A stretch of DNA of 64,000 bases, from contig NC_049991.1 in the NCBI RefSeq assembly GCF_000003815.2, forward strand, positions 10,809,024-10,873,023, given 5' to 3'. Below are positions 8,064-63,650 of the stretch, in pieces; the first letter of the stretch is position 1; each line of letters begins with the position of its first letter. The notes beneath the pieces are model-generated. The model was given only the letters and a program-made list of their open reading frames with translations. It did not search any database and was not told where the DNA came from. The position numbers and the translations under genes were made by a program. The stretch is from Branchiostoma floridae (taxonomy: Eukaryota; Chordata; Leptocardii; Amphioxiformes; Branchiostomatidae).

Positions 8064-9071
<1,008 letters not shown>

Positions 9072-9593: not shown

Positions 9594-10436
<843 letters not shown>

Positions 10437-10802: not shown

Positions 10803-10827
10803 ACTGACCGCCTGACCAGTATACCCC

Positions 10828-10843
10828 GGCCCTTTTCAGGGCC
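10828..10843 (+). terminator. histone 3' stem-loop of H2B copy 2
   Basis: GGCCCTTTTCAGGGCC with ACCCACATCTTCCAGAAAGA downstream, as in copy 1. Confidence 0.95.
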
Positions 10844-12761: not shown

Positions 12762-14094
12762 GCAAAAAGGGTATAAGCTGTTTCGCAGATTTAACTTTGC
12801 AATGTGCAGGCAAAGGTGAAGGCCCCTGAATGTAAACATTCCGCCATTTTGCAGGCGATATATATTACCATCTGGACATGGTGGTCTCATTCCTGTATTA
12901 CTATTACCCCAAGTGTAGTCTTAAAAGGAGTCTGGGCCTCCAAAAATGATTGGGCCCCCAAAGTGTGTCTGTAGGTTGACCATAAATTCCCTAGTTAATA
13001 ATCAATCCAAACTGATATGAAATGGATTTGAGATGAAAGGTTTTGTATTACTTGCATGATTATTTGTGTGTGAAAGTTTCATGACCCGAGTGATCATCGG
13101 ACGTTCACATATTTTTGCGTACTGCGGTTAGGCCTTTGGCAGCTTAAGAGGACCTCTAGTGGATAGTGGCTACCTGCATTTTGAAATGCGATAAAAGTTG
13201 TTTCGTCAGTTAGATTTTGGTGACAATTTTTTATTGCCTAACGAACGAGTGTGCTTACAATTGAAAGCAAAACATCTCCAGATATACTGTTTCTTGACTG
13301 GATTTGCAGGCATAGAAGGTGTGTTTTAATGTTGATTCAAATGGCACACAGGTCAAAGCAATGGTTGTGACTTAACATCTAAGAGGCCTTCACCATGACA
13401 TATTACCTATCTGCAATTCCTGTGCTTCTTTAGATTAAGGCAGACATCTTCATCTTGTTGAAGATTATGCTGCCTAGAAAATGCTGCCTGTTGCCCGCAC
13501 ATACATAGTGAAGTATGTGAAAGATCTTACACAAAACAATAATAACAGTACTTCTTTAATCTTGTTCTTTCATAATCATATCTTCTTTGACTTTGGAAGA
13601 CTCTGAAGGGCTTGAAATGAATTTTGGAGCTTAATTGTACTTATACAGATGGAAAAAATACCTACACCAATTTCATTTTCACTTGCATGTACACAAACCA
13701 ATCAGGTCACTTGCACCATAGAATATTCAATATGATTATGAAAGGTGACAAAATCTCTTATTTATGGTAAAACAAGGCAGTTTATGACATTAGTATCCTT
13801 TTTCCAGTATTTGGCTAATTTATGGCAGTTAGTTGCTCTTTTGTTTGTGAAATATGGTTGTAAACGTTTTTGGAGGAAATCAACATCTTATTTTCACACA
13901 GGATTGCCATCCGTATAACCAAATCATTGTGGCCTAATGTGAAAAACAAGATGACTACGTAATGGTCTAACAGAGCTTTCTTACTTTGGCAGAGGTGTTG
14001 GGGATTCCTACAACTGTGCAGCATTTCAAGAAAAAAACTTGTTCATTACAAAGTGTTTGTCAGATCTTGAAACTTTGTGGAAAGGAAATAAATC

Positions 14095-15365: not shown

Positions 15366-15489
15366 AAGGACCACAAACAGGAAGCAAAGTGTACCTATGA
15401 GAAGATAGCTTGCCTTTCGTTGTAATGTATGTTATTTCTTTAAATTCTTTACATACTTATTTCACCAAAGGACCAACACAATTTTTATT

Positions 15490-18400
15490 TAAGAATAGAA
15501 CTTTATTGTGTTACAGTAAGGCAGCACATCCTATGGAGTGCTAAGGATGAGTATGAAAATAAATAACAGGGACTGAGTGAACATGTTGCTGAGTTTCTAT
15601 GACTACTGTTTGTACTGTTAGGCATTTTACACAAGTATCATATGTACAATAGTTTTATACAAAAATCTATACGATGTATGTACATTAAAATGAGTCAAAG
15701 TTAGTTAAAATCTAGTTTCCTATAGTGGACGAAGACTGAAATCTAATACTACTTTGTAGTAGTCAACATATATGTACATTATATAAGTTACTCATGGCTT
15801 AACATGTCTGTACATCTCTTTACACTTAGTTTTTGCCTTTGTTGAAATACCTGTAATTGCAAGTCAAGTAATACTGGTGCCACAAATGGTGACACGTGAT
15901 TCCTCTGATTTCCTCATGCCTGATGGTAGCTCTCCTTTAAACAAATTGTTGATACTGATAGGACTGATGACAGAGTGATAAACTCCTTCAACCAGTCAAC
16001 ATATAGTTTGTAATCATTCCTAGTTATTATCTCCCTCCAGAATCTAGAATGTCCATTTCACACAGTCGTAGGAGACCTTCTAGTGGCCTGTAACTGTTGT
16101 ATGGCTAAAGATGATAAAGGAACTAATCTATAAGGCTTGATTGTAGCGGAATCTCTTTAAACTGTGGCTTTTTAAGCTGACACATAATCACAAATTATTG
16201 AGGAAGTGATCAATAAAGTCAACAACAATATTATACTGACCAATAACTGTTTCTCTGCACATGAAATAACATTGACAGGCTTACTGATATCTTCTAAATA
16301 ATGCAACAAATGATGGATAACATACGGTCTGCAAGGAAATGGGAATATCAACTTTCATCCTAAGATCTAAATTGAGAAACTGAACATACTAAATCACAGT
16401 AAATGACCTGTGCATAATGATACAGCATTTCCACAGTTGCTACATGTAGTTGCTACCACTATTCTATAACTACCCAATAGGTAGCTGCTATACAAAGGTT
16501 CCTTGCAGGCCATCTGTGTGTCAGCAGGCCTTTGCCAGGCCGTTGGTGGTTCGTATCTCCATCAGCTGGTATGGTACGTGCAGTTTTGTGTTGGAATGCT
16601 CAACGATCAGGTAACCCCGCCTCGGGGACACTCCCACAACCTTCACGGAGTCACCTTTACGCAACACCCGATCAGTCTTCCCAGCATCTTCTAGGAAAGA
16701 AAAATAAATATCTTTAAGAATTTTTCCATTCAATGTAGCATAAAAAGCTGCCACCACATGCTTGTAAAACTGGTGTGTTATGTCAAGTGGTGGATTGATG
16801 TAAACACAGATAGTACTGTGGTAACAAGGAAAAAACTGTGGTAACAAGGAAAGCCATGTCCTCACCAGGGTAGCCTTGCTTCATCACCCTCATCTGTGGG
16901 AAGCTCATCTTCATGTTGCCGTTGACGGTGTAGCCACGGCTGGGTGGGACGGGGGGAGGGCAATCCTGTAGGCAGGAGAGAACTTTGTTAGTTCCAGGTA
17001 CAATAGAACACAGGATAGACTTATAAGTAAATGAGAGCAACATACTAACAAGCAAAGGAACCAATGTTGTTACCGGGTATCAACATCTTCCAACTCCTGC
17101 TATGATCATTACAGATTTTGTGCCAATGAACACAGACTAAAATCCCTACACTGTTATACTGCTATAATTTTGCAAGCTTGGAGAGGTCAGAGAAATGGTG
17201 AAAGGGAAGCTAAGATAAAAATCCTTACCATGTCCATGCCGTACAGACAGCAGGTTTGCTGGATAGTTTTGGTGTCACAGCGGTCGTGGTTGTTCTCCAT
17301 CACTGGGATGGGCTGGGGTCGATTCCTGGCACTGGAAACAACACATGGATGACTTTTTTTTCAGTACAGATAAACTTTTTCATACATGTTATTAAGATAC
17401 AACTCTCATCTTACAATTGGGAAAGTGCTGAATGAAATCTTGTACCTGTATTTAGTAGGTGTCTGTAACAAATGACAGTGAATAGGTTAACACTCATACC
17501 TGTGAGGTGACCTTGACCTGCTGCGTGACCTGGACCTGGACCGCGCCCTTTTCCTCAGCTCCAGGGACCTCCGTATGGACGGCCATTTCTTCACACACAG
17601 CCTCCGTCTGACGTAGGCCTGGATGAGCGTGGCGGCCTGGTCCCGCCTGATGTCTCGCACATTCTCCAGCTGCTGTCTCGCTCCCTCACTGGGTGGGCAC
17701 ACACAGGCAGTACAGTCAGTTGTTAGAAAGGGTGTCATTCATAAGTGTGCTCTATCTTGACTACTAGTTGTATTCTTTGAAAATAATCTAATGATTTTAA
17801 GGAAAAGGATTGCTTTTGATTTAAAAACATCAATTGTGGGTAGGTAAAGATAAGGTAGCCTCACCTGAGGAAAATGTGTTTCTTGCCAATGGCCCAGTTA
17901 GCACTTGTGTAGGGCAGGTCACTGCTGTCTACAGCCTGGAGGAACCCATCCAGAATCAGCTGCAAAAAGGGGAAGTGTTATAGTACAGAAACAATAGTCA
18001 TAATCTTCCTGTGATCACATATGTAGAGGGAACAAAGAAACAGTCTAGAAATTTAGTTATCATCCAGGGACAACAAGAGTCATGATTGGAATGGTCAACT
18101 AGACATCAATTTAAAATAAGTACAATACAGAACTCAAGGTTTCTTTGTCTATGCAATACATGCAACTGCTGTACAAACATCCTGAGGCAGAGGCCGTCCC
18201 TGATTGGTTGTAATGATGTGACCTTTCACTGACCTTGCACTCGTCCTTGCGGCATGTCCTCCATCTTGCTCGTCTCCTCCAGGGCACCAGGAATCGGAAC
18301 CNNNNNNNNNNNNNNNNNNNNNNNNNNNNNNNNNNNNNNNNNNNNNNNNNNNNNNNNNNNNNNNNNNNNNNNNNNNNNNNNNNNNNNNNNNNNNNNNNNN

Positions 18401-21400
18401 NCAATTATACTCTTTGGTTAATGAATAAGGTATCTTAAATTTGGCATCCTTAGCTAAACATATAATCAGACACAGCTTAGATCAGTCCAAATGAGGCTCA
18501 TCAGCATTGTCGCTTGAGAAAAGCCAGCCAGCGACACATTAAATAGCTGTTTTGTCTATCTAGGAAACATTGTGAATCATCATTGGTGTCCTCACCTCCT
18601 GCGTACAGGTTGACTGTCTCCAGGATGTGCAGGGCCCGGATCTGTCTGCACACAACGTCCCTGGTGAACAGCTCAGGCTCCTCCTGACTGTTGGACTGTG
18701 GGAGGGAAGGGTTATGACAGTCAGAACAAACAACACATTAAGCATGTTGTCATCACAGCACCACTTTGGGTTCGTGCCACGAAAGTGGGGTGTTGATACT
18801 TAGTGTATGCATTTCTGCAGTGTTTACTTTCTTTGACAGTGACCAGACATCTTTATTTATCTCCAAACTGGCAGTAATCTAGCCCTAGTATCAGCCTGGT
18901 TAGTTTACCAGGGCTGCCATACTCACCCCTCACCAACTGATAGTACATGTATGGGAGCCCAAGCAAACTAACCAGGCTGATACTTGGGCTGATGCTAATC
19001 TATCAAAGGACTTACCCTGATACACCTGACAAAGTGAGGCTTGGCCATGACAATGGTCTTCAGCAGATTATCCAGTCTGGTCTGGAAGTCTCTAGACAGG
19101 GTTCTCCTGCCCTCCCTTTGGCTGGAAGCATTACAAAAATGAATATGTTAACACTGATAAACATTTCAAAAAAGGTTGATGTTATTCAGAACTAATCAAT
19201 CAGTGATCCTCAAGGCAAGCCATTTCATGTCCATACACACAACACAATATACAATATATTGTAACCAACTTTTTACAAAAGTGATGATGAATTCAAGACA
19301 TTGCTAGTCTCCCAAGGCTTACAAGTACATGTAATGAAAGTACATGTATCACCAGCCATGTACAGTGTTTCTATGGCACAAGTACTGCAGGTCTTACCCA
19401 TTAGAGTCGGATGATATCGGTGGTGAAATGCGATGTGCCATGCCCTGAGGCCCATTCCCACCTGTGGAAAATAAAAGGATGCAATCAGCTTTAATCTGAC
19501 TTTTAACTTTGGAGCCTGTTAGGTCTTTTCTCTGTTTTTGACTTACTTCATGTTTGGCATCATTGGTAAATTTGGTTATAAATACATTGCATGCAGCTGA
19601 GGTAAACAGCAAATTAAAATAAATACAAGCATCTATACTATAATATAAATTTCCATACTTATGTTTAATCTGTCAGAAGGGCATGTCTTCCACTCTTTAC
19701 AGACAGAATGGCACGTGAAGGTATAGCTAAAACCATCAATGTCCCACCTTGCACTTTCAGCTCGTTGGAGTAGAGGTGGGTGACGAAGCCAAAGTTACAG
19801 TTGTTTCTCGAAAAGATACAGATGATGTCATCAGGGACAGCATCGTTGTTGGTGTGGAGGAGAGAGGAGGCGTCGTACGTGACAGGACCAGTGTAGTGTC
19901 TGATGGTGAAGCTGGAGGTGTCCGGACCTTCACACTCGGGCTGGGAGAAGCTGCAACAATACAAACAATACAAACAATATTATAAATACTACAGGCAACT
20001 CTACATGTGACATATCATCAACAAAAGCACATTCATCCCTTGGCAAAGTACATGCAATATGGTCGAGATAAATACAAAGCTAGCACACTATGATAGCTCC
20101 TACCATTCATGACTGCTGTGTTGCTCAACCACCCTCTGGAGATAGCCTTCCCATGATGCACTTTGAGTGTGTGCCCCCTCCTTGTCCAGCAGACTGAGCA
20201 GCCCCGTTCTCTGACAGGTGATGAGCTCGATACAGGGGGCGTTATCCTGGCAGTCTATCTCCACATCACAGTAAATACCTTCATCTCTGCAGGGATGGAT
20301 ACAAACAAAAAATACACTCAGCATCTACTACACTCATGATCAAAGGAGCCAACATAGTTTTGTAGGTGCCACTTTGTTGGAAGAGAGAAACAACAGAAAC
20401 ACTGTTTAAGGTCTTACATCCCAGGTTTTGTTTCTTCTCTTTTCTTTTCAAAGTAAAGACATATCTGTCGTATTTGTGAGCCTTCTCACCTGGCACTCTG
20501 TTGAGTGGTCCTGAAGACATGTGTGCTGTAGAAATGCTGCAGGGTTTCTGCACACAGGTTCATACACAGCTGCTCAAACTGGTTACACTGAAAAACAAAC
20601 ACAAATACATATAGGTTGTAAATAGGGAAAAGTCACTGCCGACTAAAAGGAAAACACAAAAAATTTAACACTTGTAATCTACATTTCGTACTTGAAGCTA
20701 ATCTCCAAGCAGATCCTACGGATAGCATATAAGACAGTATCAAAGCTGCCAAAGGAGTGAAGCCGGCTTAGGAGTGTGTTTTGCTACCGTANNNNNNNNN
20801 NNNNNNNNNNNNNNNNNNNNNNNNNNNNNNNNNNNNNNNNNNNNNNNNNNNNNNNNNNNNNNNNNNNNNNNNNNNNNNNNNNNNNNNNNNNTGTCTCAAA
20901 CAAACTTTCAGGGTAATCTGTTGTTTTCACTACTTCTTTGCCTTTTCAGTACCCTCTCACAATATCATAGCCCTCTTATGAATATTTATGCGGACATGTA
21001 TCGAGTATTCCTTCCAATAGTACATCTGTCCTAGGGCTGACCGTGTAGAATGGTTTTGCTTTCAGAGATCCGCAGTGGCATTTATGACTGTCCTAAGGGC
21101 ACGCTACCCATCACAATGTGTCATATATCTCATGCGAGGTCTCATCAGCTTTTTGAAGTGCCATTGATGGGGAAATTACCCGTATGACTCCAGTGGTCCT
21201 GTCCACAGCTACACGTGGCATACTGATTAGTATATAGTGGTATAGTACTGCTTACTACTCTGTAGTCAAGAACGCGAGAAAGCTCACACCCCAACACAGT
21301 ACGTCTAGCAGCGAATATGTCGTCTACTAACTTAAAAGTAGTTACAGGGCTATTTCATAGACAGTCGGCTACACTCGTCTGGCAGTTTTCATACTGTCTT

Positions 21401-24400
21401 ATGCTACCGTAGGATCTGCTTGGAGATTACTTGAAGCCAAAACTACTGTACATGTATTTGGTATGGTACAATTCAGACAAGTATATACTACTGTCTATGA
21501 AACAACCCTGTAACTACTTTTAAGTTAGTAGACAAAATATTTGCAGCTAGATGTACAAAATTCTTAAGACAAGAAGAATAAACTTTTGTACAACTGTGAA
21601 AGTTGGATGTTCAATTGTTGACCATTGAGTGTAGAAGTAAGACGTCTTACCTCTGATGCCTCAAAGCCAAACATGTCCACAATCCCGATGACACCTTCAC
21701 TCATGGCATGCTGGGAACTCTCTGACCTGGCTGACTGGTGAAGGGACGTTTTGGAGGTTGCAGGGGTCAGAGGTCGGTAGCTGTGATGACCATTGGTCAT
21801 GCCACTGTGACCTGAGGTAATACAGAAAAGTTGAATCAAAGTTTATCATTGATGCAAGAATTTTACTTTGTAAAGGCTGAAATGCTGGACAGATGTAGTA
21901 TATTAACCATTTGAAGCCCTTGTATCATGCAGGGGTTAAGAATGCTTAACTTCTTGATGGTTTGCCATGTTATGTTCTTAAGTTCACCCATTAATTAGGT
22001 TTGTTTGGTACAGCTTTCACAGCTGTGTTTGAACTTGACCTTGGTAATGCTACCCATAACAATGGAACCAATTAAAACTGTGCTGACAGCCACGAGCCTT
22101 CCAAACATTTACACAGCTAATGGAGGAAAAGGACCATATTTTACCAGTGCAAGACAGCTTTGCCTAAAGTTCTTCCTGGGCTTTGACAGACATATAGTGT
22201 AAAAGCTTATTCAAAGCAGTCTGTCTTGATTTACAATATATGTATATATATATATATATATATATGATATAACTTGAAGAACTAAACTTTCTTGATGAAA
22301 GTTAAATGATCTTGTCTATTTCAACCAACAACACAAAGACAAAACCCATTGTTGAAATTTGCATAATGCATTTTATGCAATCTAAAGAGGATTCTGTCCA
22401 CACAGAAAGAGGCAGGCAAGAGCCAACATAACCCACCATTCTTGGCAGGTTGCCCTGAGACAGTTGACACACTTTTCTGGGCTTTCTTCTGACCTATAGT
22501 CTGAAGACTTTGCATTCACAGCATGCTAGCACTGTGTGAAATTTTTAACAGTGACCCCTCATCCATGGAGTAGCTTTTGTGGTACCCATGCAATAGTTTT
22601 TGGTAATTCCTCCAAGCAGAGGTTTTGGTCAGGGGGCTAAAAGTGGCCACACCCCCTCTGGAGGGAGGAATCAAATGAAAAAGATTGTGGCCACATACTG
22701 AACCTATAAAACCTTTGCCTGGACAATATTTCATTAGCCTGATAAATACCACATTGATCTCTTGACCATTTCATCTTTCCGAATGACAAATTAAAATTAA
22801 AATCTGTCGGTAAACTAGGTTGTAAATGACAGCAACTGAGAGACTTCCATCTGATGATCCTCTATCTCCATTTAATATCTTCTCCTGGATGAAAACCAAC
22901 GTAGTCATTTTTTCTGGCCCTTGTGCGTGATGTTTGTGACCAATGGCATCACACAGACAAGGATGTGTGAATGACAAACTTGCCACATACCATGTGGCTG
23001 TCAGCTGAGGGGGGAGGTCAACTGGGAAGTTTAAAAACAAACCAAACATATGGGGCATGATTGACATGGGTCAGGGCAGGGATGTGCACTGTTATTTATA
23101 AATGCCCTTAAGAAAACAGTGCTTGAATATGAAATATTTCCAAAGCAATATTTCTTGCTGACATGGAAGACTTTGACCATAGTTTCCAAACCCAAACTCT
23201 CTACTAACAGAGCACACAGACCCTGCACACCCCTACCCACAGCCTAATGAGATGCTCTAACCAGACAAGTTCAGCTGTGGGTTGGTTGGTAGGCAGGCTG
23301 TGTAACAGGAACCACATGTGGGCTGCAGGCAGGGCTAAATAGGGGCCCCTAGTCTCTCTCAGCCAGACTGGTGTGGGGTCATCTGGAAACTACTACGTGG
23401 CATGCCCTGCTGGCAGGCACTTCTAGCAACTTTCTATTCCTCCTAGATCCAGTATATCAGTTTTCCAACAATCCCTGTGTAGCTCTGTATCCCTGGACAT
23501 ACCAAGCTGATAAACTCTTCTGAAAAAGGTACGCTGTGATTCCTTTACCACTTACTAAATAGCTTGGACCTACTATAAAGTTGGCCTTGAGCTGGCTTTC
23601 ATTATTTCCATTTCATACATTGTTGAGGGTAGAAAAGTGATCATATAGCAGTTCCACACTTGTTTTGTGGACTTAAACAAATTCCATGCTTGACTTCCAC
23701 GTAGCTTGACATAGTATTGCTTGGCAAAGTCTGAATGTAAATTCGGATTTTCTCAGCCAAGTTAGACATTTAGTGCAGTGGCTGTCTAAACTTTCCACAT
23801 GTTTCAGCACAAACACAACTGGTAGGTAAAGCCAACAGGCTTTTGACTCTGACTCTGAGCTACTGTTAACTGTTATATACATGTATCAGTTTCCATTCAG
23901 AGCCTGCTTCTTGTCACATCTCATCCCATCTTGTTTATCTGTGAAGATGCAGGGCCATGACCTTTTCATCACGAGAGTAGTTTGATTAATAGCCAACCAT
24001 CAACCTAAATGTTACATCTTGTCCCCAGAACTTTAAGATCCATAATGAGTACTGCAGCCTCAGCCTTGTAATTTGTGGCTAGTTTTTGCATGTAAACCTT
24101 GCAGGGGCCCCAAACATTCCAGAGCCCTGGGTGCATGGTCACAACAATCAGGGCAGTTCACAAAGAGTTGGGCAGCATCCTCTAACACACTCCTCTTGGG
24201 ACTTACTAAATAACTAAGAAATTGACCTAAATTGGTCAGCTAATAGGGGGCTGTTGGGGAATTGGACCCCCTCTGACCAGCTACATGTAACTGTGGTGAA
24301 TTTTGTTATGTTGTCCTAGTATTTATTCAGCCCAGAGCATGGTCTGCTAAAACACCCCCTGCTAGGGTCCTGCTGAAGAATAGGCTGGTCGAAAACTTTA

Positions 24401-27400
24401 ATGCTATGTTTCCTCCACTATGCTTCTACGACCTTTATCAACAACATAGCCTGGTTACCAAACCCCAGCCCGATCTCAAGTATCTATCGTGCAACACGAA
24501 AGATATATCTTGAGGTTGGGGTATGGAATCCAGGCTATCAACAACAGTGTTACAACTAGGCAGTAACATGCAGATACATGTACATCTAAGAATCCATGAT
24601 CATTTCCCCAGATTTGAGAATAACTCTATCAACTAATCAAGTACAAGGTCTGGCTGACTCAACTGAGATCAACAAGTATATTTCTGGGCTGATGGTCATT
24701 GTAAACATCTAACGCTAATTTACCTTTATCTGTGGGGTAACCTATATTCGTTGTATTTAACAATGGGATATTTAGGGATATCAAGTCGACGGATGTTTGT
24801 TTTAAATTGCAATATTTGAAAAGTATTGTTGTATGAAACCACCATATGTTGATTTGATATCCCTAAATATCCCGATTTTAGATACAACGGATATAGGTTA
24901 CGCCATGGGTAAAGGTGAACTAACGTTACATGTAGTTTTCTTCCTATCTGCGTGCTAACAACCACATGTTGCCTGTTGATGGTTCAATTGATAGGCATGG
25001 CCACTGACAAACAGAGCCAGGTCATTCTCCAACCCTCCTGAGTCTTGTAGGAAAGGAAGTGGACATTTCTCCCATAGCAATGGGCAGGCAAACATTTTAG
25101 TCTGGGTCAGCTTCCATGTCTGTGATGACTAACATGAAAAAAAAACATAAGTAATGATGTCAGATGAAAAAAAAACATAAGTAATGATGTCAGATGAAAA
25201 AAAAACATAAGTAATGATGTCAGATGCATCAATTGACATATTTGACAAACTATTTAATACCATTTGTCAAGTTCTTATACTTTTTGTACCCATAACATTC
25301 TACAGTCACCACCAACAGCAGTCCCACCATGATGTCCCTCCTGTACACAATCCTGATCATACCAGCTTGTCTGGTGGTCAGCATCTATGGCCAGGGGTCA
25401 TATTCTGGCCAGGGGAAACACTCTGGCCAAGGGAAACAGTCGGAGGAGGCTCCTGAGCAAGGCCAGTGTGTGAGGTGTTGCCCACAAGACAACCCCCCAG
25501 GGCCTCAGATCATCGCTCTTCCTCAACAAATGACATCAGAGAAGGGAGATAAAGGTGGGTACCACAGTCTTATCTGATAGTGGTCTTTAGCCAAGTAGAC
25601 ATCAAGGTCAGTAAGCAACACCATCCAGTCAAAACAAATCACAATGCCATCTTCTTGTTAAAAAACAAACCAACTATAACAATGTACATCTATTCACAAG
25701 TTCACAACCCTTTATCATTTTGATAACCATTTTGTAAATCAGATGGTTGATTTTTGACTTGAGTTTGCCTGGGAAGAGGGAACCAGGGTTGCCAACTTAT
25801 TCAAATTTGACCTGAAACCATCCTGGTCCTCTTCCTTTGGGGAAGACTACAACAATTTTAGCATCAGAGAAAAGTCTGTTTCTCCAGTGTTTTGTCCACA
25901 TCTAAAAAAATCTGGCAACCCTGTTTCCCCCAGGTGACCCCGGCTGGCCCGGCCCTGTGGGTGTGAGGGGACCGGAGGGGACAGAGGGACCCCCTGGACT
26001 GGACGGAGCCAGAGGACCAAGAGGACCCCCCGCCCCGAACGCCACCAGACCTCAGGCTGCCTTCTCCGTGTTACGGGCATCTCCTATGTTTGGGGATCAC
26101 AAATACCAAACCATCACCTTTGAACACCAGTTTGTAAACATAGACCAGCACTTTAACAATGACACAGGCGTGTTTTACTGCATGATCTCTGGCATCTACC
26201 ATTTCTCTTACACTATACACACATACAATGGGTACGAATCGTATGTACACCTGATGAAGAATGAGGAGAAGCAGGTAATGAACTTTAGCCAGTCTGGCAG
26301 CCGCAGCATCATGCAGACACAGTTTGCAATGCTGCCGCTGGACAAAGGAGACCGTGTCTGGCTACGACTAGCTGGCAGGAATACAACTGCCATCTTTAGT
26401 GACAGCAAAGACTTCTACGTCACCTTTAACGGGTACCTGGCAGTGCCTCAGGACTATGAACTCAGTAATATCATACCACAGAAGACAGAACCTGACAAAG
26501 GCCATGTACTTGATTGAGAGCTATTTGAATACCAAAGCTACAGTTCTACCATTGTACTGAGTGTGTACTTTGTGCTCTGTTGAGTGTACAGGTGTAAAAA
26601 AAAACAGTAGAATACTGTATAATTAAACAATCGTTTGAGTGTTGTGACCTCAGACTTATTTTTTAAAAAGACTACTTGTCTTACTTCAACCTATTGAAAG
26701 TTTAATTACCAGAGAACCAGAACAGAAGACTGATACACATACAGCATACTTAAGGTTCAAAAGTATGAAATTGTGTTGTTTTCACTGGCATGGAATAACA
26801 ACAATAAACATTGGTTTGTATATGAATGTAAAATAATGACTTTATGTGTTGAATAAAAGATTTGAAACTGAATGAATCTTCACCTGACACTGTCTTAGGG
26901 CTGGATTGGTCTTTTTCATATGTACATGTATGTAAATGAATTCAAACCTTTTCCCAAAAAAAGCCACAGCAAAAGGAAGTTCTTGTGCTGAAAGGTGACA
27001 GGGCATTGAATACAACACATGCAAAATGCTGCTACTTGCGTGCAAAGAAGCCATGCTATGCCAAGTAGGGAAATACTAGTTGACTAATATGTAATACAAA
27101 TAGCAGACCATAACCTAGGACAAAGGAACAACCAGGGCCGTGATCTTGACTGACACACACTGTGATTGGTGATAGGTACTAGTACCAACCACCAAGTAGC
27201 TATCTGAATACCAGATGTGTGTTATTACCCAATCCTTGACCTTGTACTTGGCTTCTTGAGAACATACAGAGTGTTAGTATGGTTCCATTTACCATTGATG
27301 GAAGCTAGGCTGGTGGTCATTACTTGAAGGTTACAGGCCATCTTTCTTACAAAAACCTGTCAGAAAACCCTGGGTGAAATAAACCATAAAAAAATCATGT

Positions 27401-30400: not shown

Positions 30401-33400
30401 CTTGGCTATTACACAAATTATGCAGAATGTAATCTTCATAAACAGTCAACTGTTCCTTTTGCACAAGTGCTGATAAGCGGTTAGGCACAGTTTCCACCAG
30501 GACTCACCATTCTGTACGGACTCACTGCTGTCACTGCTGTTGGTTCCTGAGTTGGAGGCAGGTCTCCTCACACTGTTGGCACGGCGCACGATGGCATTCA
30601 GGGTTCGTGAGTACAAGGCTTTGGCTAGCGCATCCCGGATTTGGTTTGCCTGATTGAAAAGAACAATGGTACTGTTTATGAAACCATTTTGCTATTGTTT
30701 ATCAAAAATTCAAAATCTGTATCCATGGGTGGGTGGGAGTTTTCAGATCAGTTCATATTTGTAACAATAACCAAACAACAAAATATGACAACAGCTCATT
30801 TCACTCTGAATGCTGCTTACAGGGTGATCTTCACCTTGATGCTAGGTCATTTATTACATGCATAACTTATTTGCATTTCAATCATTTCTGTACCAGTTTA
30901 CAGGTCAAGAATAAAATTACTCTAGTAGTGATTTACACAGGAAGGAAAAGAAGAGAACAACGTCATCACCATTTGAGAGCACATGAGAAGTGACTTACTG
31001 TTGCAGCATCAGCCAGTGATTTGAAGACCTGTCCCCTGACATTGTGTGTCCTGGTGGTCAGGCCTCTGTAGAGGGACACACCTGACACTCCCAACAGGGC
31101 AGCAACGGACTTGATTTCTGCACAACAAAATAAACATCACTTGTACCTGCTGTATGCATTTGTTGGTTAACATATTGCCTTTAATAGATGTCTGTATCAA
31201 TAACCGTTACACACACTGTTGGTCATTTGTGGTGATTTCAATACAGTGTATTAACTCTACATGTGTTCATGTTTGAACAACCTTTGACAACTTTGTAGAG
31301 TACCATATGTATCAGTGTCTCATCATCATCATCTACTGGGCTATGCTTCTACAGTAATCATAATCTCACCATTATTGCCCTGCACATCCAGTTCCAGTCC
31401 ATCCCCCTCAACAAATTCAATGTTTCCCAGGAGAAGCACTGCTGCCAGCACCCTCATCACATCAGCAAAGGGAATACCCAACACTGACAGGGAGCTCTGG
31501 AAGTCAGAACAGATGATAGGTTTATAACAATGTTCAAAAAGACGACAAGCATATAATACTATTTACTTTAGTGGTGAAGACCGAGTAACTATTTAACAAC
31601 CAGGAGGCAACATCATGTAGCAACAAGATAAACAGTCCTACAAAACTTCCATTAAAAACGTTTGTATGAGACTATTTTCAAACAAAATTCAAACTGTAAA
31701 CAGAATGCTATAGATAAAAAAATACTACAGGAAAATTTCAAGCTTGCCAGTGAAGGTACGGTTGTCCTCTATTGAGTTAAAGCATACTGCCTTTCCTACT
31801 GATAAAGAGTTGGTGCAAAAAAGATTGAGGAAAAAGACATTGTTCCAGACTCACCCTCCAGGCCTCGAATCTGTATCTATCCTCCATGTCATCACACAGG
31901 AGCTGCCCGCAGCTCAGGTACTTCAGGTTGTAGGCAGAGTAGCCCTGCAGGTGGAGTTTTACTGCAACACACAAAGTCTGGTTAGCAACTGTACAGAAGT
32001 GCCTCCTAGAGTACACATGAGGTACTACATGTAGGTCTGCATGTACATGTCTGTGTTCTTGCTGTAAGAAATTCTGACCATGTTTCTGTCAATTTTTTTC
32101 TTATTCATTAAAATGTCCATTCAAAATTATCATACAATAAGATTGATCATGTGCAGTATACTAATATGCACACATAACATATTGTATCATACATTTCATG
32201 ATTACCAGCCAGGTAGAGTAACCAAGGAATCCAAAAAGCAGTCTCACCTCTCTCCTCAGGTGTTAGACCAGCTAACATCTGATAGAAGATATGAAAGTTC
32301 TTCTCATGTCTGGCAGGGTGAACAACTCTAGACTGGAAAACAAAATTGTTCAGACTCATCAGATAAAATGTCAACAGTCCTATCCAATATTCATTCAGCA
32401 CAGGGCCATGTAGATACTATACTGGTCTTGCTTTGCTGAACAAAAGAAGATTTGAGGATAGTGACAAGTAGTGGTTATGCCACAATTGGCTTCATGCAGG
32501 TGTGGACATCTTCAATTGTTTATCTGTGTAGATCTTAGGCCCTGGAGCATTAATTCTCATCTGATGTTTTGCATACATACATATGATTATCATAACTAGC
32601 ATATATGTAAGTTATCTAAGTCAAACTCCAGGTGTAAGTCTTTATATCTTAAGTAAGAAATACATGTATGTGAGGCATTACTTGTTGCAATAACCTAAGA
32701 GTAGTCTGCAAGTTGACCCAAGGTGTCTGTATTTTGTATGAAGTATTTTTGACATGTTGCCAAACTCTGCATGACCTGTATGTACATAACCTGGCAAGAC
32801 AATATACAGTGCCTGCGGCTACTAAACCAATAGGTTTGGTTTTCAACTGAATACTTGTCGTGGGTGCTTCGTATTGAAAGCTATCAGGAGTGACTAATTT
32901 GAAACTAATAAGCTGGAATGAACCAAACATCAAAGAATAGCGACCTCTGATTGCACCTTTAATAGACAGTAGATATGGAAATACAATATACCAGTATCAG
33001 TCATGGATGCCACACCATAACTGAAGCTGATAACCGTTAAGTGTTTCTATTTACTACAAGCCTGGGCTAAGGTTGTTATAATCACAGATCTGAAAAAGAA
33101 TAGGAAGATCTCTGAATGGGCATAGAATTTTGCTAGTACCAAGGAGGTTTTTTTAACCTCCTTGCTAGTACAATTGTACAATGTACTAAGTCTTGTTCCA
33201 TCTTGACAAATCTGTAAACAACCTATCTTACGCTCAGAAATTCAACCAGTCGAGGAGGAAAGCTCTGAAATTTGGATACTACCAGAAATGTCTGACCATC
33301 TAGAAAAATCATATCCAGTTGCTTGAGTAATAGCTATTTGGTGTATCTCATTACCTAGATGTTTAAACTTCATAATGTCAGATTACATAGAAAGTTTAAA

Positions 33401-36400
33401 ACCAATCTGAACAACTCTGACATTTGAATAAATGAATCTGCATTATCATTTCCTTTGCCATACAATGGCTGCCTTAAGAGGTGGCAAAGCTAACTCATCA
33501 CAAAATTGCTCTAAAATGTCACAAAAAATCTTAATGTACCTCCTAGTGTCAGCTGGCTCACTCTGCATCAATACAGCACAATGGACCAGGCAAAATGTGG
33601 GATTAAAGTTGTCAGACAATGTCAATTTATAAAAATCTGATATTTGCTGGAAGACAGGTAGTCAGGTAGCATATGGCATGACAATGTGACTTTTCAAAAG
33701 GCGATGACAGAGGGGATTAACAATGTCAACCTCCTCATGATGAATCTGGTCTTCAGGGCAATTTGGTTGAAACAAACATATTTGAAAAGCTATACAAAAT
33801 GTATCCTCCATTGTCCACCCGACACTGCCGGGTAATCATAGTTATTTATAAAAATAGCAGATTCCCATAGATAAAGCAAGAGAGGGGACTGGTAAAGGTC
33901 AGAGTTGCCAAGTATACATGTACACATGTAGGTGAGCAACAACAGGAACACCCAGGAAGAATCACGGACCTGGGATTGACAAAATGCTGCCAAATATTGG
34001 AACATGTACATTATAAGATTTATCTTACATGTATAGCACATATTGACACCTTAAGATTTGCTTTGATGGATCAATTTTGTACTAGTACACACTTCATTGT
34101 GAATCATGGCTGATAAGGTTGAAAACTGTCTTACCCACCTGGTCATTTGACTTTTATGAATAACCATCCCAACTATTTCATTGTGATTCCCAAAGTGAAA
34201 GCCTTCTCTCACTCTCTATACAGAATATTTCCAATCAAACTCCTCAGTAGGCATGAAAACCTGTAACCTTCCCACAATCTGAAATAAAGAACGGTATCGA
34301 CTAATTATAGAGTATATGGTCGTACCTAATCCCTGACCGGCGGGGCTGCGTGAGGGCAGTAATCAGATCATGAAGGAGATTATCTTCCAGGTGAAAGGTT
34401 TTCCTTGTGTTTATGTTTTACAGAATTATGAAAAGGATCATTGTTGATGAATTATTGAAAAATTTAGTCACCAGATGTTTGTCCGACAGTACAGACATGC
34501 CACAAATATCTGTCTTTAACTTTAAAGAAACCACTCTTGGATGATTGCCTGACTTGTGCACAAGGACCATCACAGAAGATAGTAATTATCATCTTTATTA
34601 TCTACTTCATTGCTGTAATAATGCCACTTCTACATTACATGCTATCTGATTTTCAAGGACTGCATAAAGCTTTTTGTAGCTAGCACTTGGTCCTCACTAT
34701 AAGTGGGTAAATCCAGCATACCTACATGTGCACAGCATTAAAGCATTTCTGACAATTACTCACAGTGTATGTACATGTACAAATGGAAACCTTTAGGAGA
34801 TATAACGTTAATGACTAAAATTATCACAGTAATTTGCATAAGTGATGAAAATGAAATTTCATAAGAAACCAATATACTGAAGCAGCAATATCAACTCAAG
34901 TTTTCTCTCATGCTACCTAGCCCTGAGTAAGTTGACCTAGCCCCTGAGTAAGTTGACCTAGCCCAGAGTTTCACCTAAGAATGTATAGATAAGATAAGCC
35001 TTCACTCTCCTGGTACCTGATGGTTCTGTGCTATGTTCTAATTCCACCCCCTGCCTGGTATGTGATAAGATCTCCCCATGCCTGGTGCCTCTGTAATCCT
35101 TGTTGGTTTTTCTCCCCTTTGTCTGTCTTCCTTTAATAGATGTAAGCACAACTGGAGACAAATCCCTGTCTGCCTCTTAGCTGCTATAAAAACTGAAGTT
35201 TCCAGCCATTCCAGCGGTAGGAATGGGGACAACTTGTTGGAGTTGACATGAAAATGTGATTACCTGATCAATGAAGTAGCAGTGGATCTTGGTCCTGTAG
35301 ATGGCTCCATCTACTACATGCACTTCAATGAAATGACCCTAAGCATGGGAAAATAGAAACTCCGTCAGTAAGTATTTCATGTATTTTCCCCTGTGGCTAA
35401 ACGAATCTGGATACCACTGCATGACCAAAGAAAAATAGCAACATCCTACAGAACTCTGTCATTAATGCAAGACCTACATAACTGTAATTTGACAAGTCAT
35501 ATACAAATTTCATGTGCCCTTATGACAACCTTTGACTTTTACTATAATGTTAAAGCTCTTCTCCTAACATTTGCCAATGTGATAAGAGAATGAGAAAAAT
35601 GTGCCCAAAAAGCTTGTATCTATTATTCTATAATACTGTACTTTTCAATCAATATCTACAACGATAGTAAACATACATGTGCATGTTTTAAACAATGCTT
35701 AGAACTAGATATGCAAGTGTTACACATGTAGGTGTGTCAGGTTGTTCACTGTCATACATTTTTTTTACATGTATAACCAGCTGCTACCGCACTGGGTGCT
35801 TGCCAAGCTCGTGTGTTATGCTGAAGGGCATTCATATGGGCCACATTGATCCAGGTTCAGATGTGCAAATTGAAATGATAACTCACCATTCTACTGGACT
35901 CACTATTGGTGGCAGTTTTGGCACTTCCTATGGAGCGTAAAACAGTGAAGGCTGCAGACAGGTGCTGTAGAGGAAACAAGGTCAGTATTTATAAGAAAAA
36001 TTACTTTGGGAAAACTAAGTTTTACTTTGAAACATGACTGAGGTACTTTAACACCATGCAGAAACAGTTATGAGTTGGCTACCACCAAGAAAACAAAGCT
36101 GGAGTATACACATTTTCTTTCCAAAGATGCTGTCTCATCTTGTGTAAACCTCTTCTAAATTCCAGACAGAGATTTTGTAGAAATGTTTTTGTAAGCTGTA
36201 CATGTAGTTTTTACAGCCATTCATTTCCAACCTGTTGGAACTCCCCCCATCCCTCCCCTGCACTTTCCCTAGATTTATTCCTTTCCACTCCACAAAGAAC
36301 CACTTCTAGGGATTAATCTTCCTCACAAAGGTTGTGAATAGTGTGCTGTTTGTTGAAAAGATTACAAACTTCTTTGCTTTTGCAAGAGATGCCCCACCTC

Positions 36401-39400
36401 AAGACATGTCCACCCAATGACAAAGCAAAAACATTTTTCGAGTGAGCTGCTTTTATGAATCTCTCATCATACATGTATGCCATTTAGCATTTGGGAAGTA
36501 TAGTTCTATACAGGCGCACTATTCAACAAAGCATCCAGGTCTGGGTGGCATTTAAAGTTACTCAGAATGATAAACTGAACCTAAGAAATATCTCTGTGCA
36601 TTTGCTTATGCCCTCATGTATTAAGGTTTCATTGTAACTACAGGAAGGGCTGACATTTCTATAATGAGATAGCTGACAAAAGAGGAAAACATCAGGTGGG
36701 CAGAGTAATCACCTAAGCTCTAGAGAGGAAATTAGAGGCAGAAACCTCAGGCTCTGCAGGAAATCAACAGTAGGAAGGCACAAACATGCTTTTGATGTGA
36801 CAAGGGACAACAGTAGAAGGCTGGTGGTTACACGACTAGAAATGATTTATGAATGTGGATCTGCCTCTGGGTGAGGCTGCAAGGAAGTAGAGAAAAAAAT
36901 TACAAATTCCAAACTATCCATCCTGTTCCAGCACCTGAAGCCAAACATCAGCTATGCAATGTCGTCACAAGACTTCCCAACCCATTATTGCTAAATTCTT
37001 ATTGCTTCAGTGCATTGTTATCTTAATTACAGTCCAAACTTCATCGACCTGAAATCTGAACTGTTGATGACAAGAGATGGAGTATTTCTACCTTGAAGGC
37101 ATCTGTCTCAGGCCCTCCTCCTGCCACATCAAACAGCTGTCTCAGCAGTAGCTGAGAGGAGTAAGTCTTCCCACTGCCATTCTCACCACTATGGGGAAAC
37201 AAAATACAACAATTAACAGTTAACATAGATGGTTAGGCAAAACAGGGCTCTAATTGGCAAGACAATAAAGAAGACTAACAGAGAAGGGTGTCTAAGCATT
37301 TCATATAGTGGTGATTGACAACATAAAGTACAGGTTGTGGGTACTGCTGACCTGCTGTTGTCCAATTTCATTTCTCTTTGACAGTAATTTAACGTATAGT
37401 CTAAAATAGAGGGAAAAAATAATAAGGCAGCTGTCCACTTGAAATATATTGTACATAAAGGTTGCTATCCCACCTGAAGATGACAACCTGTGAGTGACCA
37501 GTCTCCAGCTGATGTTTGACAGTGTCCTTAGCCACCCTGTGTAGGGGTTGGTGTCTTCTTGGGTCGGCATGTAGTGCAACATCGGGAAAACTACAGTTGT
37601 AGGGGTTGGCCAGCACAGTGATCGGTCCTATGTTGGTCTGCATGAGGATTTTGAAAATGTACTTTGAACCTGACATGCATTCTTTATCCAAGTACTATAT
37701 AAATCAATATAATGTTACCCGTGGAGCCTTTATTTCAACAAAAAGTGATAAAAAGTAAGAATCAGATCTAGTTGCCAAACAGTCTTAATCCAACTTGTGT
37801 ACCAATGCAGAAAAGCACCGCTAGCAGCCTTGGATTTTAAACTGGTATAAAAACTGTCATTTTAGAGTGCAGACATCCTAATTAGACCTTGTCATGTCAG
37901 ATGCAAATCTCCAGCATTTGGGAATTTCTTTGTGACTCACAGTGAGTTTTATGTAGACTTTTATTGCATTATGATGATAGGAACTGGGATACAGGACAGC
38001 TTTATGTGATGGTATTGGCTCGTAATGTCAGTTATCTTTGCTGTTGTTGCACAATTAAGGGCATGGTAAGTGTACTACAATAACAATACGTGTTGCATAA
38101 TTCAAGTGCAACTCAATAAACATGGCTTCTTGTTCTTCTTCTGGTAAAACTCAGTGGTAACAAGTACTCAGGTTCCAGCACAACAGCAACTTTTCAGAAA
38201 CACATGCCTTGGGAATATTCTACTAATTTACGTCTGTATCTATTTCCATTAAACAGGGTTATCAAAATTGGTCAAAGGAATGTCCTGGGAAAGAACTGGT
38301 AATAACACCAACACAATTTCATAATCTAAGCACTAAATGAGGAAAAATATTTTTGAGACAAGACCATTTCAAACAGGTGGTCTTGTTAGCATTTCACATG
38401 ATTGTCAGGGTGGTTTGGCCCACTGTTAAAGTTTTTGAATTACAAGACAACTCTAAAGATGCTTAGTGTTGAAGCTGCTGCAGTGCATAACTAACTGGAA
38501 ACTTTCAAGTGACCCCTGTCTATATTGCTCAATCAATTTCTCCCAAATTTGTAATGAAGATGAAATTTCTGTCTCAAAACATGTAAGATTTCTATATATC
38601 TCTATAATGCTATTTTTCCAAGACATATAATTCAAGACTCACATAATACTCCCCGCTGTAGAATCTGGACTGCAGAGTGCGGAGGATGGCGTCCTCTGTC
38701 AGGGGGCCGGCCAGGTGGATCAGGTCCGTCATGTGGGAGAACCGGCCTGGGCTGGACTGGCTGGTCACAGATGCTCTCCGGGAACCTGGGAAAAATTTTA
38801 GAAATTGAAATACAGATAGGAACGTTTAAACTGTGAAATGCACAACCAAGTCACAATGAGGTTATGTCTTCCCTTTTCTTCAGAGCTAAAAAAATAAATA
38901 CTGCTTGTTAGTCTACAAAATTGAAAGTCTCTTGTCAGGACCATCTTTAAAATTGCTGCAAGAAAATTAAAAATAGCTACAATGATTATCAACAAAATGC
39001 ATGAATCATCCGTCATTAGTCCTGATTTTTAGTCAATTCATTTCTCACAGTACTTGTATTTTGCCCAACTCTCAAATCCTCAAATCTCAAATCTCAAATT
39101 TAGCACTCATTTGGCTTATTATGAGTTGTATGGGAGAATATGGGGCTAGCATTGGGTGGAAATGAAAACAAAAAAACATACCAGGACCTGCATTATCAGC
39201 AAGCAATGAAGATGGGAAAGAGTGCAACCTTAACCAACAATCTACTGATAAAAGTCATTATTATTTACTGGCTAAATATAAACTTTGTTCCCCATAACAA
39301 CTCCCTGTATAACATTCCTGGTTTGAGGACATTAACATGTGACGTCCATGTACATGTAAATGGCAACAACAGCCACCTACTCTTACTTGATGCATGCTGC

Positions 39401-42400
39401 AACTTTCAAACCATTTCTGGAGATAGTTCTTCTACATGACCAAACTTAAAACACAAGACAACTTGTCACACAGCATGGTTTTAACCTACAGGTAAGACAG
39501 AACCTGAACAGGGGGTGGGGGCATCCATCATCATGGCATTAGTTTGTGTCCTCCAACATAGAAACCTGTACTGCATCATTACCCATCCATCCAATAAGGC
39601 ACCTGCCCTGATGTTTCTATTTATCATCGGACACTAAACACATAAACACTGTACCAGCCGCAGGTGGGCGACAAAGGTTAGGCTGTTTGAAGTATGGTGG
39701 ATAGTGGTCCATTTTTGTAACAGAGTGTGCAGGGCCATACTCTCACTAAAACAGCTAAAGATGTAACCTGTGAATTGTTCAGTAACTGCAGTGTCATGTC
39801 AATATACTGGTAATTTCACTTCTCTTCCCTGGTAGATACCTTGGAAATAATGTTTCTTTCAAAACACTGACAACCACTTGTGGATTTCTATTTCGGGAAT
39901 AAAAATCACAGCTGCAATGACTAAAACACAACAACTTGATACAAGTTCTCATAACATTTGTCAAGGTACACGTATTCAACTTTGTAATTTAACTTCAAAC
40001 CTAATCGTACTGTCACCTTACCTATAACTTACCTATAGAGTGCATGGCCTGCAAATATCCAGTCCACATGATTCACTATTCCTCATCCTGTTTTCACATC
40101 ACAACATCTATGTTTACAAAAAAGTGGACCAAACTGCTTTAGTTCTCTCTCCACAATCCAATAAGTCTTTTCACCATATAGCCAAGGCTCAATTAAGAAA
40201 CCTTGGAGACTCCTCTAAGTTCTTACAAAAAGGAATTCAGTGTTTACGTCTTGGGGAAACCCAGAACACTTAGCATAGCATCCTTTACAGGAAGGAGACA
40301 TGTAAACAGGATGAAATGGTTGGAACGTTGATAAGTTCATGTATGGAATGAACATTAGGGGAAAGCATAAACATGCAGGAATAAAAAGGCCTACACTTCT
40401 GTCGCTAAAATTTCATTTGGTGTTTTCCATTATGGAGATGAAACAGCTGACACAATCCACTTAGCACCATGGCAACAACATGGCAATTGAATGACTTTGC
40501 ATGACGAGGGATGATGGTAGATTTGGCAAAAAATAGAGAGCATTGTTCGCTTAATCCACACAGGTGATCTGCCTTAAGGTTAAGGTGCCTTTTAAATCCA
40601 GTTTTCATTTTGTCTGTTGACCTTGCAATGTTGCATGCTACCCGTGCACCACCCTTTTTTCAAAATGGAAATAGGACCTTGTCTCCAAACTTGAACTAAA
40701 CACAAATTACATACAGGTACTTCTTCCAAACTTCCACAAACAAATAAATAGTAAGGTCTGGGCACTCATTACAACAAGCCATTAAAAGTATTCCATACCT
40801 CTAATAGAGACTCCTTGGCTCATTAGATGTTTGCTATTCAGATGCATTACACAAAATGTACAATACAGTATAGTACTTCACTACAAACAGCTCAAGCATG
40901 TGACATCTTCCAACCAGAACAAAGACCTTGGTGGCCTTGACCCTGGGGTAATGATTTGCACAACCTTGGGGTTTCTATTACGGCAAATAGTATCGGTTAT
41001 TCTAATTAAACCAATAAACATACCAGATCCACTGCTGTGTTTATGTTTGTGCTTTGTGTTCCCCTGAAGCCCCTGATATGTCACACCATTTTGGTAATCC
41101 AAGTACCTGGCCGGCAGGTATGACTTGTAAGAACTGTCAAAGCCACCTTGGATGAAGGTGGGACAAAGTTCTAAAGGGGCCGACATCCCTGTTGTTGCAC
41201 CTGGCACAATGGGATAAGTTTCCCCTGGAAAGGGCTTTGTGTAATAACAAATATGGACAGCCTTGTGGCCTATAACCATGGATGAGCACAAACAGAAGCA
41301 CAAGGCTGCACATCACCTCTACTAAGGAGCAAAAAGTGCTATACTCAACATTCATACTATTTCCCTTGCTTGTTATGATAAAAATCTACATTAAAAAATC
41401 CAACAACCTATGTCTTTGCAGTAGAGTTAGTCTTTTTTCAGATGCTCAGGGAAAACCATTTCTTCTAATGTATGATCAACTGGTATGTGTAACAACTAAA
41501 TTGTTATCTGATACATTAAGCTCCATATTGAAAGTCTGATCCCGTATATTTCCTGTTCTTTGGCTCTGCTTCTTGTGGTCTCTTCTGTAGACTATTCAAT
41601 GTTCTAAGAGACAGTCTTTCCCACAGGCCTTCCTGGTCCATCCATAATTAAATGCATTGTGTGGAATAACTCTAATATCCTTTTTATACAAGTCTGGCTA
41701 ATGTTACAGAGAAGAGATATTTATGCTGTATGGGGTCCTCCCAGGCTGATCTGCTCAGGTCCCCACTCATGCATGGAATGTGCCCTACTACCAGGGTCAG
41801 ACCGCTGTACTGACAAGGTCCATACAAACAACACGCTTCCCTTCTGGTCTGTTTACAGGTTGGAGGAGAAGGTCAAGTTTTAGGTGGAGAGGCTTACAAT
41901 CTGGCCAATCTGTACCCAGATTCTTGTTATAAGAGGAGGTGAAATTAACGCTAGGGGCATGTGGGTCATGGGACAGTAAAAAGAACACCTGTTTCCAAAG
42001 CAGATTCTTAACATACTTGGTGAATAGAGTGTTTGGACAGGCTTTACACCCTCACCAATATCCCAGGGTCTCGAAATCTCTATAATTAACTATAATCCTA
42101 TTAACTGTCTTTGGTTGGTAGACTTTGTTCACAGACCATCATCCTCAGGATAAAAGTCAATAAACAATATTTTCTTTTTCATATTCTGTATTTTCATGGA
42201 TAAACTGCTTTAATTGACCAACAGGACCTCAGCAGAGAAAAGAAGATTTAAGGTTTAATTACTGTACATGTACTCTGAAGTACTCACCTCTCCGACTGGA
42301 CATTCTGGAGGTGCGACTTTTGGTGTCGTCCTCCCCTTTGATGCTGAGGGCTGAGCGGATGGATGCAAGCTCCGAACCCAGGGACTTCAGCTGCTCTCGT

Positions 42401-45400
42401 AACAGCTCAACATCATCTGAGGTAGATGCTGCATGAGGAAAGAAAAAACTATCAGATATTGAATCAAATGACCAGATACCTTTTCATCAAAGTTTCACTC
42501 TCACCCAGTAAGCCATCATGTCATGGTTCCAGGACAGCCACAACTTCCCCTTCTGACATAATTCATCCCCAGACAGATCAAGTTCTGTCCCTAAAGATAT
42601 AAAATCAATTGGGGAGGTCCTTATCTTCACTACCTCCTGCTATGAATCAGGACAAGAATGTGGACTACTGGCAAGTTAATCATGGGACAGATAGGCATGA
42701 TAAAGAGGTGAGAACAGGTTGGAGAGGTCATCACCTATTCTCAAAAGGTATAAGATAGGAGCCAGATAGAAGTTCTGCAGGAGAGATGACACCAATTTCT
42801 GTTCAGCATAGCCATAACAGTTGTACATCTGGTATATTACCAGTAGATTCTATCTAGCTTGTTACAACCATTTTACTAATTTTTCAGCATTTTACTAGTT
42901 TTAAAGAGATTCCAGAAGACAGCTTCTTTGGAACTCTGCTATATGTATAAACTAGAGTGATTTGTCTAAGATAAAAAATGTTACCTTACCTTAGCATTTT
43001 TAAGGCATACATCACATTCGCCTAATGCTAACTCACTACTAGTATATTAGCTATTGTCTATATAGAGGAGAGTACAGCCTCTTTGTATGCCTTGAAGTGA
43101 TGATGTGGACTGTAATTTTTAGGGTTGACCTGTGATAAGACAGGGTCAATCAGTAAGCAGCTGCCTGTATGACATGAGAGAAGGACAGAGACATACAAGG
43201 CATCTATTGATGGACATCTGCACAGGTCTGCCAGGACATATTCATGAGGAATTACTGTCCAAGCTGACCTTCTGGAAAGTAATTAACTCTGCATGATGGA
43301 GAGCCTGCACCACCAAACATGACAGGACAGAGGTCAATGTGAAAGAACATGCTTGTGTATGTTAGAAAACATGACAATTCAAGCAGATGACTTGGTTCAA
43401 ATGGAGCTTGCCATGACAGGATGACATGACAGTGATGGATCTCTTTATGCTGGACAACCCAGATAGCTGGACACTGCTGATAAGGCCTTGATATACTGGC
43501 AGTGCTTCAGACATGAAGACTTCAGCACATAAAACAACCCTTGACATAGATCAGGCGTATTCGATTGTATCCTATGCTACAAGATATAATGTAGCTTTCC
43601 TTATGGAGGTTACCAGCTGTCAAGACAAAATACAGCAATGACATTACAAAGTTTGTTAGGCCCTCTCACTTCAACATCAAGTACAGGAAAACATCTAAAA
43701 CATCATAGTATAAAAAGCTTTAAATGTCATCTGTTACATGTCAAATGTACATTTAAGATTTTCCAAAAGCTTCTGGTGACTTAGTGGACTTTTACTCCAG
43801 TATGAAGCATATGTAGGCAAACAAAGCCCTTCTTTGTAACTGTTGATTGATGGATTCTTATACTTGTGATCATGATGAGGTTATTGATTATACCAGGTGA
43901 GTATACCCAACAAAAGTGATGCAAGGATAATTTACTGCAATTACAGACCCCACACTGACTTCCCTGATATCAGTCTATGCTTAGGTTTCTCTCTAATAAA
44001 TTTGAAAATGTAAAACTCCTGTCTGATAACAGCTGGAATGTCAACTGTGCTTACTACAAGGCCTCAGGTCTATTAGGGTTTCCTTTCTTCATTACCAGCA
44101 AATCACAAGGCCAACTCATCAATCCTGCTGTCTTCCCTCAGGGCACACATCCCTCGCTAGAACGTCTCATATAACAGCTGAGATAGAACCCACACACAGA
44201 TTCTGTGAGAACATGGCTAGATACAGGGATAGAGCTAGAGATCAGAAATGAAATTATACAAATCTTGCATTTCACTTTTTGTATCTGGAAAGAAAGAATA
44301 CATTCCAATGGATTTTTTTTATCAAAGAACAACTTCCTACTTTCATTATTATATCTTGGAAACAAATGGTTCAAAAGGCTAGCTATCAGGTCTATCCGGA
44401 CCTTAAGGCTTAGCCTTAAGACAACAATTTTAGGACAAAGACTTTTTCTTCCACCCTTAAGAAAATGGTAATCCAGCATATTTGCCACCTGTGCAAGGTT
44501 GATACCTGAAGTCATCACAGACCCTTTGATCTTTCCAGGTCAGGAAATGCAGATAATCATCAGTCTGTAGCCAATTGAGCATAGAAGAGAATACAGACAA
44601 TATGCACTTTTCTGTCGAAATGCTGTGTTGGGAGAGGACAAATGGATGTCAACTGTGCTAAGCTGATCATACATTATTGAAAAAAACAGGGAAAGCTTGT
44701 ATTCAGAACTTTTGAGGAAGGTGAATATTTTTATCCTGTATTGATACAATGCACTCAATAGCATTGCAACAGCAGGACGGAAGATACATTTACATAAATA
44801 TTTCAGTCCTGTGTAATGCTAGAACATGTATATGTAAAACTTAAGACAAACAAAGGAAAAACCAAGTAGTATACTACAAAATCATACAGACAACACCCTC
44901 AGTAGCTCAAAAACAGACAGATTCAAACAAAACCTACAGGTATCACAATCCCTGGTGCAATTACTCAAAATATATTCAGATTTGTACTACTGGTATCAAT
45001 TAGCTTGTATCTAATTTGTACATGCTCATCCATAGTAACACGTACCTTGCTGCATACAACCATCCTGGTACAGTCTAAAGGCAAGAAGGCTTCTGTTTCT
45101 ACCAGTTAGTCTCATACTTTAGTCAGCTGTTGGTAGATAAATAAACACTTGTCCTCCTCAGTTGAGGCCAAACTTACAGCTAGCAGCTGACATACCTGCA
45201 AGTGGCTGCAACATTTGCTACCAGTAGTACCACACACATAGCTGCAGCACTCCTAATGTGGTACAGAAACAGTGGCCCATTATGATATACTGTGTGAGAC
45301 ATTATCTTTCTGGGACCAATCATTAGGCAGATGTTGGCTGATGTAAAGAAAGTGGAAGTCCAGATTACTGGCACAAAAGAGCATAGCAATACAGAAGAGA

Positions 45401-63650: not shown

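Follow-up and report, generated by a model that had tools for sequence, protein, structure and literature searches.

Dachs, the class XX myosin of Drosophila and a scaffold in its growth control, is the described protein that best fits the architecture of the gene reported here, a minus-strand myosin heavy chain gene in a 64,000-nucleotide stretch of DNA (the window). The passages of PMC2375034 (2007) that deal with class XX report it from arthropods and one sea urchin, propose its loss in Chordata, and define it by a coiled coil on the N-terminal side and a short neck with one IQ motif. In the parts of PMC3620549 (2013) that concern the gene, a dachs ortholog is named for Branchiostoma floridae, dachs of some other species is given more than 20 exons, and fly Dachs is said to carry a long N-terminal part ahead of its head, which begins at residue 274. 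The relevant sections of PMC5047748 (2016) describe homologs of Dlish 'from Placozoa to Cephalochordata', each in a taxon for which a Dachs homolog is predicted as well, with both Dachs and Dlish apparently absent from vertebrates. The same sections mention conserved C-terminal regions of Dachs without Pfam motifs, and a fly site (SH3Bd-3), located among the final 98 residues, that Dachs needs to bind the second SH3 domain of Dlish. In PMC3942036 the Dachs class is called 'Myosin XVI', and class III is reported as the nearest to it.

The window carries a genuine gene, split into many exons, for a myosin of the Dachs type, and, judged on its architecture, this gene is probably an ortholog of Drosophila dachs. 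When a Dictyostelium myosin II motor was used as the tblastn query, myosin-like pieces were found in order on the same strand (best E=5e-06 and 3e-05), and the exon ends were placed by hand from the sequence around them. The 24 coding exons found run from 42428 to a stop at 16521 and join in frame into a protein of 984 positions, including 14 X as nominal placeholders for an assembly gap. GT stands at each of the 23 donors and AG at 23 of the 24 acceptors; the remaining acceptor, that of exon 19, lies inside the gap (a run of 100 N at 18302..18401). Canonical splice sites were thus seen at 46/46 visible exon ends, and the reading frame is preserved across 22 of the 23 junctions, the other falling in the same gap. 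The GC content is 54% in the exons vs 39% in the introns.

As the Pfam scan of a 937-position protein (exon 1 omitted) gave Myosin_head at E=5.7e-116, with 388.8 bits against a gathering cut-off of 33.3, and the 24 exons are joined in frame, the reading of a myosin motor plus tail in an earlier note on this DNA is borne out. The four peptide blocks quoted in that note were all recovered as exact matches on the minus strand, namely IPFADVMRVLAAVLLLGN (31422-31475), NCNFGFVTHLYSNELK (19755-19802), QTCCLYGMDM (17229-17258) and LHVPYQLMEI (16554-16583). Its gene extent of 15490..63650 holds in part: the low end fits a candidate polyadenylation signal AATAAA on the minus strand at 15484..15489 (further AATAAA start at 15507 and 15011), but no support was found for the upper end, coding sequence being placed at 42428-16521. 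The 5' end of the gene was not found within the window. Because exon 1 has a phase-1 acceptor, at least one further exon is implied upstream, and of three phase-compatible ATG candidates for the first exon none has other support.

The head, neck and tail were then compared with published descriptions of Drosophila Dachs: a head with an extra insert, one IQ motif, a Pfam-free tail, an SH3 ligand among the final 98 residues and an N-terminal coiled coil, features that the window protein appears to have. The distance from RDALAK to switch II is 82 residues in the window motor vs 26-37 in nine reference myosins (26 being that of a myosin XV copy short of four residues), and 46 insert residues before switch II are specific to the window motor. 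The first part of this insert lies with RDALAKALYSRT in exon 11 (30508..30649) and the rest in exon 12 (21651..21811), which also encodes switch II (DMFGFE). In the neck, exon 21 (17500..17688) carries a single degenerate IQ motif (IQAYVRRRLCVKK), which gave one Pfam match of 12.7 bits, under the cut-off of 20.3. The tail contains the blocks CDTKTIQQTCCLYGMDM and KGDSVKVVGVSPRRGYLIVEH, and its last 124 residues matched 0 Pfam families up to E=10. Exon 22 (17229..17331) encodes NRPQPIP and CDTKTIQQTCCLYGMDM, and exon 23 (16866..16965) encodes PPPVPPSR, in which the type II SH3 ligand PVPPSR begins 85 residues before the C-terminus and thus inside the last 98 residues. The 24 coding exons agree with the more than 20 of dachs in some other species. 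Unlike the window protein, fly Dachs has a long N-terminal part before its head at residue 274. An RS repeat (RARSRSRSRSRSRSPH, 17500-17560) was also observed immediately after the IQ motif.

Exon 1, the first found (42288..42428), encodes an N-terminal coiled-coil segment and was recognised by its coding score and its splice sites (GCAG / GTGAGT), an acceptor and a donor with phases compatible with exon 2. A codon-usage scan of 38.9-64 kb on both strands, with a score trained on the other exons of the same gene only, singled out one segment, 42423-42274, which extends 14 bases beyond the exon 1 donor and scores 19.7 (next best 11.7). None of 200 null sequences drawn from a second-order Markov model of 38.9-64 kb reached 19.7 (null maximum 14.6); this test was post hoc, made after the segment had been sighted, and its final background excluded the exon 1 region. 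In the heptads of exon 1 the a/d residues read VLLLLIL, 7/7 hydrophobic, in the best of seven registers counted manually rather than with a dedicated predictor. No coiled-coil exon of lancelet dachs appears in the passages of PMC2375034, PMC3620549 and PMC5047748 considered here, although no search was aimed at that exon. This exon and the retained residues of the ATP site are new details beyond the published accounts.

The motor domain by itself had about equally low scores against every class seen. A PDB sequence search matched 150 distinct chains, and among the best 60 of these the per-class scores were 278.8 bits for XV, 255.6 for X, 250.1 for Va, 247.8 for VIIa, 247.6 for non-muscle II, 238.7 for Ib and 219.3 for Ic. 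As a yardstick for a within-class score, a 522-residue piece of myosin Va reached 846 bits against its paralog Vc. By sequence, then, the motor is not a close member of any class met among the best 60 of the 150 PDB matches, among which Dachs was not found. The first 341 motor residues gave 30 pattern matches and the last 124 residues of the protein 2, with 0 confirmed in either case, against a prokaryotic/viral contig collection and viral contigs, respectively; both results are uninformative on animals.

For the motor-domain tree, one reference sequence was taken for each of classes I, II, III, V, VI, VII, X, XV and XIX, so that the tree covers sister positions but not nesting inside a class; IX, XVI (MYO16), XVIII, XX and XXII are outside this set. 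The references of II, III and XIX are unverified copies. In an alignment of all ten sequences, identity between the window motor and the nine classes is 28-33% (mean 30), while the nine have a mean identity of 39 among themselves. The maximum-likelihood tree placed the window motor on a long branch (1.86) beside MYO3A at an ultrafast bootstrap (UFBoot) of 43, with MYO15 at 60. Of 15 attachment branches, the approximately unbiased (AU) test rejected four, as sister to II (p 0.022), V (0.033), VII (0.004) and X (0.004), and did not reject the other 11, including III (0.754), XV (0.547), III+XV (0.494), XIX (0.296), VI (0.084) and I (0.080). The tree is to be read as a long branch, perhaps close to III or XV, and not as Dachs. 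The earlier note had held that the blocks of motor and tail resemble Dachs and not I, III, XVI or XIX, and its interpretation is supported in part. The distance of the motor from I, III and XIX agrees with the identity range over the nine single sequences, but the AU test rejects none of these three; the tree gives no firm placement in another class, yet it sets the motor on a long branch nearest class III.

These results bear directly on the possibility that the gene encodes a divergent class III-related or orphan myosin and not Dachs. Class III, represented by MYO3A, is the nearest tip at UFBoot 43 and AU p 0.754, and proximity to class III is also what PMC3942036 reports for its Myosin XVI/Dachs class. 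However, MYO3A and the window motor are just 30% identical, the coding exon ahead of the motor specifies a coiled coil and not a kinase, the scan of 38.9-64 kb contains only one strong segment, and no protein kinase domain was matched by Pfam in the 937-residue protein. We therefore regard a class III or orphan origin as unlikely.

An orthology with vertebrate MYO16 (class XVI), here considered by description, would leave no vertebrate loss to explain. MYO16 carries N-terminal ankyrin repeats, but no ankyrin match was made by Pfam in the 937-residue protein, and the codon-usage scan, the only scan made there, found nothing else that scored strongly as coding in the 25 kb that the window holds upstream. 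Since Dachs is named Myosin XVI in PMC3942036, one classification may merge XVI and Dachs; in the passages of PMC2375034, however, XVI and XX are treated as separate classes. Thus a MYO16 ortholog seems very improbable, more so than a class III relative, and orthology with dachs is the reading that we carry forward.

Several observations weigh against the assignment to Dachs. Membership of class XX was judged on architecture, set against published descriptions of Dachs and not against Dachs sequences, and the head insert was likewise compared by its described presence and not by its position. The IQ match lies under its Pfam cut-off, and a separate strict IQ pattern found none in the protein. 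The SH3 site of the window protein meets the type II pattern only, whereas that of the fly conforms to both type I and type II. In the tree, the grouping with class III has a UFBoot of only 43, and the AU test leaves 11/15 positions unrejected, including XV, XIX, I and VI. In the published record, the B. floridae dachs is stated, in the part of PMC3620549 that describes it, to have no coiled coil, and the corresponding section of PMC5047748 has the coiled coil missing from homologs of most taxa besides insects and some arthropods. PMC3620549 also contradicts itself as far as its relevant passages go, its discussion having no convincing chordate ortholog.

The lancelet dachs of PMC3620549, known here by its description there, is possibly but not necessarily the gene of the window; it is a named lancelet ortholog, but unlike it the window gene has a coiled-coil exon. 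If the source of the DNA is a lancelet, exon 1 may have been overlooked in the gene models used by PMC3620549, and the coiled-coil exon would correct the printed statement on lancelet dachs. The headline of the earlier note, that Dachs is present in lancelets and was lost in vertebrates, is already known, because PMC3620549 (2013) and PMC5047748 (2016) report it, and the vertebrate absence is here taken from those papers. Hence our result is mostly the confirmation of a published claim, plus a few new details: raw sequence with an exon map confirms a gene fitting the Dachs branch of Fat-Dachsous-Hippo control. With a lancelet source, it would support the published view that Dachs and Dlish were lost in vertebrates.

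The ATP site was compared with the same nine references. The P-loop in exon 4 (37092..37188) reads GENGSGKT vs GESG[AS]GKT, switch I reads NSESSRMGH vs N[ND]NSSRFGK and is divided between exon 5 (NSESSRM, 35887..35964) and exon 6 (the remainder, GHFIEV, 35264..35338), and switch II reads DMFGFE vs D[IV]xGFE. The window motor thus keeps the lysine and threonine in its P-loop, SSR in switch I and D..GFE in switch II. Four positions that are invariant in the nine references are altered, three of them in switch I and one in the P-loop (GEN for GES). These four changes are what a pseudogene or degenerate copy might be expected to show, but an open frame over 24 exons with canonical splice sites at every visible exon end makes such a copy hardly credible.

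In the relevant passages of PMC12828244 (citing Cao 2014) and PMC8967653, fly Dachs is reported to bind no ATP and to have no detectable ATPase activity; the window copy keeps the P-loop lysine and threonine together with DxxGFE. Because the P-loop lysine and switch II are kept, an ancestral origin of the ATP-free state seen in fly Dachs becomes testable. A bolder conjecture, which we consider doubtful, makes Dachs in this genome an ATP-binding motor paired through its coiled coil, and the ATP-free scaffold of the fly a derived state; on that view the ancestral protein would have moved, or kept up tension at the cortex, together with Dlish, and vertebrates would have lost that motor branch of Fat-Dachsous signalling.

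If the window protein acts as its fly counterpart does, its motor would anchor it at cortical actin (F-actin) and bind Warts, while the C-terminal proline site would bind Dlish at its second SH3 domain. Once lipidated by Approximated, Dlish would tether the Dachs-Dlish pair under the membrane. By the same analogy, Fat and Dachsous would set the amount of Dachs at the cortex, and cortical Dachs would weaken Warts.

The last exon (exon 24 with the stop, 16521..16690), which runs from KGDSVKV to LHVPYQLMEI, possibly encodes a small SH3-like barrel. An AlphaFold2 model of this exon alone (55 residues, no alignment) had a mean predicted local distance difference test score (pLDDT) of 68.4 and three strands, with core blocks at 82-83. 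Foldseek returned 382 matches at E<=10 for the model, 0 of them at E<=0.001; the best was 0.41 (Abl SH3), and 5/6 top matches are named SH3. The same exon gave 0 phmmer matches up to E=10 and 0 Pfam families. As a speculation from the model, an SH3-like barrel adjoining the proline ligand would permit self-binding in competition with Dlish.

The remaining exons, all on the minus strand, complete the map in the order of the protein. The motor starts with MTDLIHLAG in exon 2 (38643..38785) and continues with TNIGPITVLANPY in exon 3 (37474..37637). Following switch I come exon 7 (32248..32332, SRVVHPARHEKNFHIFYQMLAG), exon 8 (31855..31961), exon 9 (31370..31496, containing IPFADVMRVLAAVLLLGN) and exon 10 (30999..31117). 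Beyond switch II lie exon 13 (20490..20587, CNQFEQLCMNLCAETLQ), exon 14 (20104..20286), exon 15 (19748..19950, HYTGPVTYD and NCNFGFVTHLYSNELK), exon 16 with the loop 2 region (19398..19461), exon 17 (19016..19121, PHFVRCIR) and exon 18 (18596..18695, QIRALHILETVNLYAG). Of exon 19, the run of N hides the acceptor and the 5' portion, and the visible 3' part (18234..18300) encodes FRFLVPWRRRARWRTCRKDECK of the converter; the converter ends in exon 20 (17865..17959, GKKHIFL).

Other genes were also observed in the window. The 8.7-kb intron of the myosin gene holds, at 25296-28681, a nested pair of collagen-C1q coding regions (Pfam C1q 6e-31 and 1.5e-35), which lie on the opposite, plus strand. Convergent with the myosin gene is a plus-strand gene at 14092-15362 with a WKF domain (Pfam 2.2e-06), which we take to resemble human C7orf50. 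A histone cluster at 4905-10868 comprises H1, H3, H2B, H4 and a second H2B on the plus strand and H2A on the minus strand, H1 being identified by Pfam and the others read from their translations. Five Rfam histone 3' stem-loops reach the gathering score for these six genes, with none listed after H4. Finally, a piece of an ENGASE-like gene is located at 2504-2905 (Ig_ENGASE1_C 9.6e-16).
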